Assembly: GCF_002925905.1 (NCBI RefSeq)
Contig: NZ_PRDB01000001.1
Location: 62,001-126,000, forward strand
Direction of reading: 5' to 3'
DNA: 64,000 nucleotides
Origin: Klebsiella michiganensis
Lineage (GTDB): Bacteria > Pseudomonadota > Gammaproteobacteria > Enterobacterales > Enterobacteriaceae
A model generated the notes under the pieces. It was not told where the DNA came from. It saw only the letters and a list, made by a program, of their open reading frames with translations, and searched no databases. Made by a program: the position numbers and the translations under genes. This document shows, piece by piece, positions 49,814-61,343 of the stretch (within the stretch, counting starts at the first letter, position 1; every line of letters starts with the position of its first letter).

Positions 49814-49866
49814 CGCGAACGTCATCTCGCCACGCTGCGCATAATTTTTATTCAGATGAGTGGATT
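49814..49866. other. recG-glpX rearrangement junction
   Basis: In E. coli recG is followed by the convergent gltS, and glpX by position follows glpK. Here the 53 bp between the recG stop and glpX ATG contain no hairpin terminator, no REP unit and no clear promoter, so transcripts from the gmk-recG unit should run into glpX. The last 15 bases (cagatgagtggatt) look like the native glpX leader. This marks one edge of the relocated block 49.8-61.3 kb. Confidence 0.75.
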
Positions 49867-50877
49867 ATGAAACGAGAACTGGCCATCGAATTTTCGCGCG
49901 TCACCGAAGCCGCCGCGCTGGCAGGCTACAAATGGTTAGGCCGCGGTGATAAAAATACCGCCGACGGCGCCGCCGTCAACGCCATGCGCATTATGCTCAA
50001 CCTGATCAACATCGACGGCACTATCGTGATTGGCGAAGGCGAAATCGACGAAGCGCCGATGCTGTACATTGGCGAGCGCGTCGGTACCGGCCACGGCGAT
50101 GCGGTAGATATCGCCGTCGATCCCATTGAAGGCACCCGCATGACGGCGATGGGCCAGGCGAACGCGCTGGCGGTCATGGCGGTAGGCGATAAGGGCTGTT
50201 TCCTGAATGCGCCAGATATGTACATGGAAAAGCTGATTGTCGGCCCGGGAGCGAAGGGCACCATCGATCTGAACCTGCCGCTGGCGGAGAACCTGCATAA
50301 CATCGCCCGCGCGCTGAATAAGCCGCTGAGTGAATTAACGGTCACCATCTTAGCCAAGCCGCGCCATGACGACGTCATTGTTGAGCTGCAAAAGCTGGGC
50401 GTGCGCGTGTTCGCCATCCCCGACGGCGACGTTGCCGCCTCTATTCTGACCTGCATGCCGGACAGCGAAGTTGACGTCATGTACGGTATCGGCGGCGCGC
50501 CGGAAGGCGTCGTTTCCGCTGCGGTGATCCGCGCGCTGGACGGCGATATGAACGGCCGTCTGCTGGCGCGTCACCACGTGAAGGGCGACAGCGAAGAGAA
50601 CCGCCGCATCGGCGAAAACGAGCTGGCACGCTGTCAGGCGATGGGCATTGAAGCAGGCAAAGTGCTGCGCCTGGACGATATGGCGCGCAGCGACAACGTG
50701 GTTTTCTCGGCAACCGGCATCACCAAGGGCGATCTGCTGGACGGTATCACCCGTAAAGGCAATATGGCCACCACCGAAACCCTGCTGATCCGCGGTAAAT
50801 CCCGCACTATCCGCCGTATTCAATCGATTCATTATCTCGATCGCAAAGACCCGGATATTCAGCTGCACATCCTGTAA
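49867..50877 (+). CDS. glpX: Class II fructose-1,6-bisphosphatase
   Basis: Metal-dependent phosphatase of gluconeogenesis (336 residues, as in E. coli). Motifs: KWLGRGDKNTADGAAVNAMR at about 23-42, IVIGEGEIDEAPMLYIGERV at about 55-74 (metal Glu/Asp), and DIAVDPIEGTRMTAMGQANA at about 84-103 (lithium-sensitive phosphatase signature); the catalytic region YGIGGAPEGVVSAAVIRALD is at about 207-226. Normally the third gene of the GlpR-controlled glpFKX operon. Here it is 9 kb upstream of glpFK and directly behind recG, so it is no longer under the glpF promoter. Confidence 0.97.
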   Translation: MKRELAIEFSRVTEAAALAGYKWLGRGDKNTADGAAVNAMRIMLNLINIDGTIVIGEGEIDEAPMLYIGERVGTGHGDAVDIAVDPIEGTRMTAMGQANALAVMAVGDKGCFLNAPDMYMEKLIVGPGAKGTIDLNLPLAENLHNIARALNKPLSELTVTILAKPRHDDVIVELQKLGVRVFAIPDGDVAASILTCMPDSEVDVMYGIGGAPEGVVSAAVIRALDGDMNGRLLARHHVKGDSEENRRIGENELARCQAMGIEAGKVLRLDDMARSDNVVFSATGITKGDLLDGITRKGNMATTETLLIRGKSRTIRRIQSIHYLDRKDPDIQLHIL

Positions 50878-50896
50878 AAACATTTGATCAATAGAG

Positions 50897-50922
50897 CTTT
50901 CCAGCCTTTTCGGGCTGGAAAT
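50897..50922 (+). terminator. Hairpin between glpX and fpr
   Basis: The inverted repeat tttccagccttttcgggctggaaa lies about 20 bp after the glpX stop. The following atctgctc is only weakly T-rich, so termination may be partial. The remaining 50 bp to fpr must hold the fpr promoter (SoxS/MarA dependent in E. coli). Confidence 0.6.
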
Positions 50923-50973
50923 CTGCTCTCGTCGCGGTGAAGATACGTTAACAGGATTGAGAGGAGAGTCGCT

Positions 50974-58860: not shown

Positions 58861-58881
58861 TCTGACTACGGGACTCATACT

Positions 58882-60393
58882 ATGACCGACAAAAAATATA
58901 TCGTAGCGCTCGACCAGGGCACCACCAGCTCCCGCGCCGTGGTAATGGATCACGATGCCAATATCGTCAGCGTTTCTCAGCGAGAATTCGAACAAATTTA
59001 TCCGCGTCCAGGCTGGGTTGAACACGACCCGATGGAGATCTGGGCATCGCAAAGCTCTACGCTGGTCGAAGTGCTGGCAAAAGCCGATATCAGCTCCGAT
59101 GAAATCGCGGCGATCGGCATCACCAACCAGCGTGAAACCGCCATCGTGTGGGAGCGCGAAACCGGGAAGCCGATTTATAACGCCATCGTCTGGCAGTGCC
59201 GCCGTACCGCCGAAATCTGCGAACAGCTCAAGCGCGACGGCATGGAAGAGTACATCCGCAAGGCCACCGGCCTGGTGGTTGACCCCTACTTCTCCGGCAC
59301 CAAAGTGAAGTGGATCCTCGACCACGTCGAAGGCGCGCGCGAACGCGCTAAACGCGGCGAGCTGCTGTTCGGTACCGTAGACACCTGGCTTATCTGGAAA
59401 ATGACCCAGGGACGCGTTCACGTGACCGACTACACCAACGCCTCGCGTACCATGCTGTTTAATATCCACGAGCTGGACTGGGACGACAAAATGCTCGACG
59501 CGCTGGATATCCCGCGTGCCATGCTGCCGGAAGTGCGCAAATCTTCCGAAGTGTACGGCCAGACCAACATCGGCGGTAAGGGCGGGACGCGTATACCGAT
59601 CGCCGGCATCGCGGGCGACCAGCAGGCGGCGCTGTTCGGCCAGCTGTGCGTGAAAGAGGGGATGGCGAAAAACACCTACGGTACCGGCTGCTTTATGCTG
59701 ATGAATACCGGCGAGAAAGCGGTGACGTCAACGCACGGCCTGCTGACGACTATCGCCTGCGGCCCGCGCGGTGAGGTGAACTATGCGCTGGAAGGCGCGG
59801 TGTTTATGGCGGGCGCCTCTATTCAGTGGCTGCGCGATGAGATGAAGCTGATTAGCGACGCGTTCGATTCCGAATATTTCGCCACCAAAGTGAAGGATAC
59901 CAACGGCGTGTACGTCGTTCCGGCGTTTACCGGCCTCGGCGCCCCGTACTGGGACCCGTATGCCCGCGGCGCGATCTTCGGCCTGACCCGCGGCGTGAAC
60001 TCCAACCATATTATTCGCGCCACCCTGGAGTCGATTGCCTATCAGACCCGCGACGTGCTGGAAGCGATGCAGGCTGACTCCGGGATCCGTCTCCACGCCC
60101 TGCGCGTTGACGGCGGCGCGGTCGCCAACAACTTCCTGATGCAGTTCCAGTCCGATATTCTCGGCACCCGCGTGGAACGCCCGGAAGTCCGCGAAGTCAC
60201 CGCGCTGGGTGCAGCCTATCTGGCCGGTCTGGCGGTCGGTTTCTGGCAAAACCTGGATGAACTGCAGGAGAAAGCGGTCATCGAACGCGAGTTCCGTCCG
60301 GGGATTGAAACCACCGAGCGTAACTATCGCTACAGCGGCTGGAAGAAAGCGGTAAAACGCGCGCTGGCGTGGGAAGAGCACGACGAAGCGTAA
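58882..60393 (+). CDS. glpK: Glycerol kinase
   Basis: FGGY-family kinase: glycerol + ATP to sn-glycerol-3-phosphate, 503 residues. N-terminal [20 protein letters not shown] at about 5-24 (ATP phosphate loop); [20 protein letters not shown] at about 182-201; second phosphate loop [14 protein letters not shown] at about 260-273; FGGY signature region [20 protein letters not shown] at about 412-431. The C-terminal [19 protein letters not shown] is the region contacted by enzyme IIA-Glc, so inducer exclusion is probably kept. In E. coli glpX follows; here the repeat array and gltS follow. Confidence 0.98.
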
Positions 60394-60402
60394 GATGGGG
60401 GA

Positions 60403-61340
60403 AGTATTCCCGGCTGGCGGCGTAAACGCCTTAGCCTGGCTACCGCCCGCAGACCGCACAACCCCGTAGCCCGGCTAAGCGCAGCACGAGCCGGGGAGAA
60501 ACCGCGTCGATATATAAATCCCGGGGTATCCCCGGGTTGCGGCGTAAACGCCTTACCCGGGCTACCGCCCGCAAACCGCACACCCCCGTAGCCCGGCTAA
60601 GCGCGGCGCGAGCCGGGGGGAAACCGCGTCGATGTATAAATCCCGGGGTATCCCCGGGTTGCGGCGTAAACGCCTTACCCGGGCTACAGCCCGCAGACCG
60701 CACACCCCGTAGCCCGGCTAAGCGCGGCGCGAGCCGGGGAGAAGCCGCGTCGACGCATAAATCCCGGGGTATCCCCGGGTTGCGGCGTAAACGCCTTACC
60801 CGGGCTACCGCCCGCAGACCGCACAACCCCGTAGCCCGGCTAAGCGCAGCGCGAGCCGGGGGGCAACCGCGTCGATATATATATCCCGGGGTATCCCCGG
60901 GTTGCGGCGTAAACGCCTTACCCGGGCTACCGCCCGCAGACTGCACACCCCGTAGCCCGGCTAAGCGCAGCGCGAGCCGGGGGGGAAACCGCGTCGATGT
61001 ATAAATTCCGGGGTATCCCCGGGTTGCGGCGTAAACGCCTTACCCGGGCTACAGCCCGCAGACCGCACACCCCCGTAGCCCGGCTAAGCGCAGCGCGAGC
61101 CGGGGGGAAACCGCGTCGATGTATAAATCCCGGGGTATCCCCGGGTTGCGGCGTAAACGCCTTACCCGGGCTACCGCCCGCAGACCGCACAACCCCGTAG
61201 CCCGGCTAAGCGCGGCGCGAGCCGGGGAGAAACCGCGTCGATATATAAATCCCGGGGTATCCCCGGGTTGCGGCGTAAACGCCTTACCCGGGCTACAGCC
61301 CGCAGACTGCACAATTCCGTAGCGCACCGCCTCCGGGTTT
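60403..61340. repeat. Tandem array of seven ~122-bp REP/BIME-like units
   Basis: Full units start (gtagcccggctaagc) at about 60466, 60588, 60709, 60831, 60952, 61075 and 61197, spaced 121-123 bp; a partial right half precedes them (60410-60465) and a truncated start follows at 61319. Each unit has two palindromes: gtagcccggctaagcgcagc/gcgagccgggg, and cccggggtatccccggg plus gcggcgtaaacgcc, joined by accgcgtcgatatataaat. Units differ by single bases (ctaccgcccg or ctacagcccg; gcagcg or gcggcg). Open frames of up to 168 residues read through it but are repeat-encoded. It fills the whole glpK-gltS interval, 950 bp with no gene. Confidence 0.95.
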
Positions 61341-61343
61341 TTA

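Follow-up and report, generated by a model that had tools for sequence, protein, structure and literature searches.

Inversions symmetric around the replication origin, together with reversions of such inversions, are known from Yersinia (PMC2483231), and rearrangements have been reported to be enriched near the origin (PMC12863080). In starved Escherichia coli, 22 of 90 sequenced rearrangement junctions were found at repetitive extragenic palindromic (REP) elements (PMC3161906), while in the gamma-proteobacteria chromosome rearrangement is described as rewiring transcription units and regulation (PMC2329645). The present subject is a rearranged block of glp, tpiA and sbp genes in Klebsiella michiganensis. 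It lies in a stretch of 64,000 nucleotides (the window, C4:62001-126000) of a 1,476,486-base contig, NZ_PRDB01000001.1, belonging to a 32-contig draft genome (G000, hereafter the own genome). In this window the block stands between recG and gltS with its two halves swapped, and we consider it likely that the arrangement arose by two successive inversions spanning oriC in the common ancestor of the Klebsiella/Raoultella/Kluyvera group.

As in the inversions described in the Yersinia passages, the breaks fall on both sides of oriC, a reversal or near-reversal can be recognised and the direction of the genes relative to the replication fork is kept. Unlike those inversions, the second one would here have been off by about 3 and 7 kb, leaving a permanently swapped block in many genera. 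With regard to the passages on starved E. coli, the ancestral gaps that were broken are among the few types of gap that bear REP-like motifs, in part of the genomes, whereas REPs are now absent from the majority of the new junctions and a role for them is only suggested. The case also resembles the rewiring described in gamma-proteobacteria in that glpX departed from the glpFK unit and now follows recG, although the glpX case is not described in the passages of that paper. The event is of a known kind, and a search restricted to the open-access literature returned nothing on this particular instance.

Gene order in the window and its ancestral state

Proteins of E. coli K-12 were run by tblastn against the window, with the annotated K-12 stretches as reference. 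The order obtained was recG> glpX> fpr> yiiR< yiiQ> tpiA> SLC13< cdh< sbp< zapB< glpF> glpK> gltS<, which reproduces the genes and strands of the original prediction, made before any database search; the K-12 matches of the flanking genes extend over 47732-49810 (recG) and 61350-62546 (gltS). In K-12, as the prediction had stated, recG> is followed by gltS<, at 3.827 Mb, and the pfkA-to-rraA stretch lies separately, about 280 kb off at 4.108-4.119 Mb, in the order pfkA> sbp> cdh> tpiA< yiiQ< yiiR> yiiS uspD fpr< glpX< glpK< glpF< zapB> rraA<. Comparison of the two orders bears out the proposed circular permutation. The gene of the putative SLC13 transporter is absent from the K-12 block and was found in most of the Enterobacteriaceae blocks read.

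Four junctions are new. Three of them lie in the window, namely recG/glpX, sbp/zapB and glpK/gltS. The fourth, pfkA> facing rraA<, had been foretold by both scenarios of the original prediction and was indeed found further along the contig, 253 kb past gltS and on the far side of oriC, with 65 bp separating the aligned coding parts of the two genes (L089). A second intact glpFKX locus was ruled out, the own genome carrying one glpX (PF03320) and one tpiA (PF00121).

The order of the window is not universal among its relatives. Unrearranged loci were fetched with GlpK and each was read as far as the locus extends. In Leclercia, Enterobacter, Lelliottia, Kosakonia, Citrobacter, Atlantibacter, Serratia and Pectobacterium, and equally in Pantoea, Erwinia, Lonsdalea, Tatumella, Photorhabdus, Xenorhabdus, Proteus and Photobacterium, zapB-glpF-glpK is followed by glpX or fpr. 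Beyond these genes come tpiA and often sbp and pfkA, and rraA adjoins zapB where the contig reaches that far. The old block persists in E. coli, Citrobacter, Enterobacter, Kosakonia and Serratia, which makes the rearrangement derived and ancient; judged on gene order, the intact block is the ancestral state and the recG-glpX arrangement the derived one.

Distribution among relatives

With a DNA probe spanning recG and glpX, recG followed by glpX was found in all 20 genomes of the window's genus, as a one-piece match in 19 of them and as two pieces about 930 bp apart in G016. Four single-contig genomes (G001, G007, G010 and G019) carry the junction. The pfkA-rraA junction was present in all six genus genomes searched, including G001, G007 and G019, the three single-contig genomes in that search.

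Among 392 genomes of the family, recG is followed by glpX in at least 34, distributed over 11 genera, with 28 one-piece and at least six two-piece matches (same strand, 0.1-4.3 kb apart, only those with an E value of 1e-120 or better being kept). A pfkA-rraA probe gave one-piece matches in at least 19 of the 392, all among these 34, and 13 more of them have the two genes facing one another at a distance of 0.2-3.3 kb. In all, pfkA faces rraA within 3.3 kb in 32 of the 34 rearranged genomes, and in the other two (G027 and G262) they were separated later. The block was read from recG/glpX through glpK in 16 rearranged genomes and its order was identical in all, with extra genes in several; the readings were partial for L010 (from tpiA on), for G099, G170 and G016 (short of zapB), and for G262 and G052. 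Named carriers include Raoultella ornithinolytica (L005), which belongs to the window's genus, Kluyvera sichuanensis (L007) and Enterobacter sp. CC120223-11 (L010); L005 and L107/G008, with identical glpX sequence, are one genome and were counted once.

These counts rule out a strain-specific change. The arrangement is an old one, common to a large clade and not peculiar to this genome, and none of the outcomes that the original prediction would have taken as a refutation was found. A second glpX-like sequence, of 67-71% DNA identity, occurs elsewhere in five of the 20 genus genomes (G005, G011, G015, G016 and G017).

Proposed inversion pathway across the replication origin

The rearrangement was modelled with fixed ends and three movable pieces, i.e., the oriC segment (gltS..pfkA), sbp..glpX and glpK..zapB, and all signed orders were searched. 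A single inversion cannot produce the order seen, and of all pairs of inversions only one succeeds, the same that had originally been put forward as an exact account. The first inversion of this path breaks recG/gltS and glpK/glpX, the second sbp/pfkA and zapB/rraA, and both span oriC. A simple inverted cut-and-paste of the block was rejected, as it would preserve the internal order and cannot yield swapped halves. In the own genome oriC was placed between mnmG and mioC (C4:270347-270732). The block, at 111.8-122.9 kb, lies about 148-159 kb from it, and pfkA/rraA, at 377.6 kb, lies 107 kb away on the opposite side; the corresponding K-12 distances to oriC are about 98 kb for the recG/gltS site and 183-193 kb for the block site. 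The earlier claim that the inversions spanned oriC therefore holds in that oriC sits between both sites, and falls short of proof as regards inversions against an excised circle.

The following course of events may be proposed. A first inversion across oriC would have had its breaks at recG/gltS and glpK/glpX, after which the origin region would have been turned back by a second, the breaks of which, at sbp/pfkA and zapB/rraA, were a few kb off. The net outcome would be about 10 kb on the other replichore, cut at glpK/glpX and joined at sbp/zapB, and this cut and join would make the block look circularly permuted and leave pfkA facing rraA. The breaks may have been supplied by repeats or by stalled forks.

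Compared with K-12, both halves of the block are inverted and sit on the opposite replichore, so that none of the genes has changed its direction with respect to the fork; glpX, glpK, tpiA and fpr run head-on to it in K-12 and in the own genome alike. An inversion path necessarily keeps this direction, whereas for a reinserted circle it is a coin toss. Moreover, of the 13 rearranged genomes with gyrB and recG on one contig, 12 show gyrB in its ancestral orientation with respect to recG, the exception being G027. A flip followed by a flip back leaves the orientation of gyrB unchanged, and a circle predicts the same.

The block could instead have been excised as a circle, which would have brought sbp next to zapB and pfkA next to rraA, and then have been reinserted between recG and gltS after opening at glpK/glpX. 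This yields the same four junctions and a block that is truly circularly permuted, and it accounts for the orientation of the gyrB region in those 12 genomes without any flip. Nevertheless, random reinsertion would keep the fork-relative direction of both halves only half the time, the circle would have to survive while carrying tpiA, and inversions across the origin at these very gaps are seen in related lineages. Inspection of the four junctions by eye showed no integrase, insertion sequence or att-like repeat, though no systematic search for these was made. We consider such a circle unlikely and infer that inversions were the cause.

REP elements at the breakpoint gaps

A hand-entered REP-like motif, with one mismatch allowed, was scanned in 22 unrearranged loci from 21 genomes. 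It was found in five of 20 gap types, namely glpK/glpX (3/20), rraA/zapB (6/20), pfkA/sbp (8/19), SLC13/tpiA (3/15) and fpr/yiiR (3/17). The remaining 15 types lack it in all of their 254 gaps, and 337 kb of coding sequence contains a single instance. The three ancestral breakpoint gaps that could be scored are all among the five REP-bearing types (10 of 1140 triples, p ~0.009), with the motif present in only part of the genomes; the ancestral recG/gltS gap has it in the one case available, K-12. The association is confounded by the position of REPs at places where a break does the least damage, and REPs as a recombination substrate are a suggestion.

Single or repeated origin

Genomes with under half of the genes were excluded from the tree sets, and the combined trees were made without G052 (a long branch), G380 and G090 (a duplicate of genome L008). 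One row (R_G160_g142) combines block genes from G160 with flank and gyrB-dnaA genes from G254, which bear the same genus label. In the combined sets the core rearranged genera (g1, g9, g142 with Kluyvera, g81, g152, g84, g74 and g41) form one clade (support 100). Genus g56 falls with the core rearranged genera in one combined tree (100) and with the Kosakonia group in the one to which gyrB-recF-dnaN-dnaA were added (69). The combined sets allow all rearranged genomes to be united in one clade (approximately unbiased (AU) test, p 0.288 and 0.232). A single origin of the rearrangement, although not proved, is likely, chiefly because the four junctions coincide.

The tree of gyrB-recF-dnaN-dnaA disagrees at many points with the trees of block and flank genes (L249-L278), which suggests exchange of this region between genera, and adding these genes left the species tree less clear.

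Independent rearrangements in several lineages at hot-spot gaps would fit the failure of the trees to join g43 and g56 firmly to the rest, as well as the fact that glpK/glpX was broken at least once more elsewhere. Set against this are the four identical junctions in every genus with both sites read and the combined sets that do not reject monophyly, and we find this explanation improbable. We give marginally less credit still to a circular or linear copy, from a sister chromosome or another cell, that was inserted at recG/gltS and followed by loss of the old copy. It would involve no stage without the genes, and the block and flank trees do not fully agree; however, no genome with both copies was seen, glpX and tpiA being single in the own genome, and these trees each unite the core rearranged genera, so that no foreign origin is shown. 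A chimeric assembly, conceivable as the own genome is a draft and one that the original prediction wished to see excluded, has a negligible chance, given that both junctions recur in unrelated assemblies including single-contig ones.

Several observations weigh against two oriC-spanning inversions in one common ancestor. No genome with only one pair of the new junctions, as an intermediate would have, is among the listed matches of the 392 family genomes, although an ancient intermediate need not survive. The circle requires the same four breaks as the two inversions. Genus g43 (G061), and in some trees g56, stands beside unrearranged genera, g43 being unplaced (55 with the Kosakonia group). 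The set of gyrB-recF-dnaN-dnaA alone rejects monophyly of the rearranged genomes (AU p 2.4e-5), in a tree that also splits well-supported groups. Finally, the new junctions are mostly REP-free (recG/glpX 0/16, sbp/zapB 0/13, pfkA/rraA 1/16, glpK/gltS 4/14), which weakens the idea of a REP substrate, for which hybrid REPs would be expected there.

Genus g56 was also tried as a half-way genome, as the stretches read at first lacked sbp and glpFK, and was rejected since a 9-10 kb insert accounts for their absence.

Upstream elements of glpX and sbp

Of 30 unrearranged genomes, 27 have the element TGnTA[AC]A[AC]T, which may be an extended -10, at 38-52 bp upstream of glpX. Its background is low, with three cases in all upstream of 17 other genes of the unrearranged loci and 0.23% of random 75-bp pieces. 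Among 35 distinct rearranged genomes it is kept in eight (Kluyvera, g142, two of g9, two of g56, one of g41, and G016), counts that are not phylogenetically independent, and this retention indicates that the element travelled with glpX in the move. In 19 of the 20 genomes of the window's genus, where the recG-glpX gap measures 50-70 bp, it is gone.

It is likely that glpX is now co-transcribed with spoT-trmH-recG, i.e., that it has undergone operon capture. Having moved with its own promoter-like element, glpX may later have been taken into this transcription unit in most lineages. The literature search named no promoter of glpX, the passages of one glpFKX paper offering only a glpF/zapB promoter. 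Upstream of sbp an AT-rich stretch is found in 11 of 15 rearranged loci versus 19 of 21 unrearranged ones.

Recurrent breaks at the same gaps

In genus g9, G262 has the order pfkA> yicI> yicH< xanP< gltS> glpK<, and in G027 yicI comes after pfkA, gyrB is reversed relative to recG and rraA lies 177 kb from pfkA. These genomes (loci L237, L149, L150 and L236) show that a later oriC-spanning inversion reopened the pfkA/rraA gap and joined pfkA to yicI near the xanP-gltS end.

In G114 (g96) the tpiA-glpX piece lies outside the block, with glpX 90 bp behind lldD, and in G126 (g108) glpX lies 115 bp behind mtlR; in G126, G304 and G232 cpxA adjoins trmL. In K-12, mtl, lld and trmL are found to the left of oriC and cpxA to its right. 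The loci concerned are L158, L159, L207, L233, L284, L287 and L288, for which E. coli records served only to name the neighbours. In both genera glpK/glpX was broken separately and genes of the left arm were joined to genes of the right arm, which makes at least one and possibly two more events across the origin.

Features of the window and variation of the block

The features of the window are collected in Table 1. The glpK-gltS gap measures 962 bp in the own genome, the median over 14 rearranged genomes being 106 bp.

Table 1. Coordinates in the window of the swapped block, its flanking genes and the three new junctions
Feature	Position	Strand	Basis
recG, closes spoT-trmH-recG, left flank of the block	47735..49813	+	tblastn to K-12 RecG, 94%
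New junction recG/glpX, 53 bp, without conserved TGnTAnACT element	49814..49866	.	junction sequence read
glpX, parted from glpFK	49867..50877	+	tblastn, K-12
fpr	50974..51720	+	tblastn, K-12
yiiR	51721..52149	-	tblastn, K-12
yiiQ	52256..52861	+	tblastn, K-12
tpiA	52970..53737	+	tblastn, K-12
Putative transporter, labelled SLC13 in the original prediction only	53849..55153	-	open reading frame
cdh	55227..55982	-	tblastn, K-12
sbp	56180..57169	-	tblastn, K-12
New junction sbp/zapB, with AT-rich stretch upstream of sbp as in unrearranged genomes	57170..57320	.	
zapB	57321..57566	-	tblastn match 57324-57566 plus stop
glpF	58009..58860	+	tblastn, K-12
glpK	58882..60393	+	tblastn, K-12
New junction glpK/gltS, 7.5 tandem copies of a 122-bp unit resembling REPs or bacterial interspersed mosaic elements (BIMEs)	60404..61323	.	
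gltS, right flank of the block	61344..62582	-	tblastn, K-12

Inserts of 4-10 kb occur inside the block (SLC13/cdh, cdh/sbp and sbp/zapB) at L153/L201, L155/L199, L164, L162, L010, L243 and L244, and the one of g56 encodes a kinase 25-26% identical to GlpK. In G061, G074 and G052 there is no gltS match between glpK and xanP, the latter coming directly after glpK (L163, L199 and L203). The 3.2-Mb genome G052, which has long branches and is placed with the window's genus, has kept the rearrangement with the sbp-xanP half locally inverted and about 33 kb between tpiA and sbp.

Significance of the rearrangement

With its four breakpoints and clear polarity, this arrangement is a derived marker that can help in placing the problematic genera near Klebsiella, Kluyvera and Kosakonia. 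It is probably also a clear example of an origin region flipping back imprecisely, something that as a rule is deduced from whole-genome dot plots only. Moreover it offers a natural experiment in probable operon capture, in which a gene of the glycerol operon was moved behind recG and its promoter-like element was kept in some descendants and is gone in others.

We tentatively suggest that the recG-gltS-xanP and pfkA-to-rraA neighbourhoods could be two sites, one on each side of oriC, at which the origin region flips repeatedly in the Enterobacteriaceae. Imprecise returns would ferry genes across the origin with their fork-relative direction kept, and glpX, being viable without glpFK, might repeatedly be left behind an operon of the left arm (recG, lldD or mtlR) and then captured, losing its own promoter-like element.

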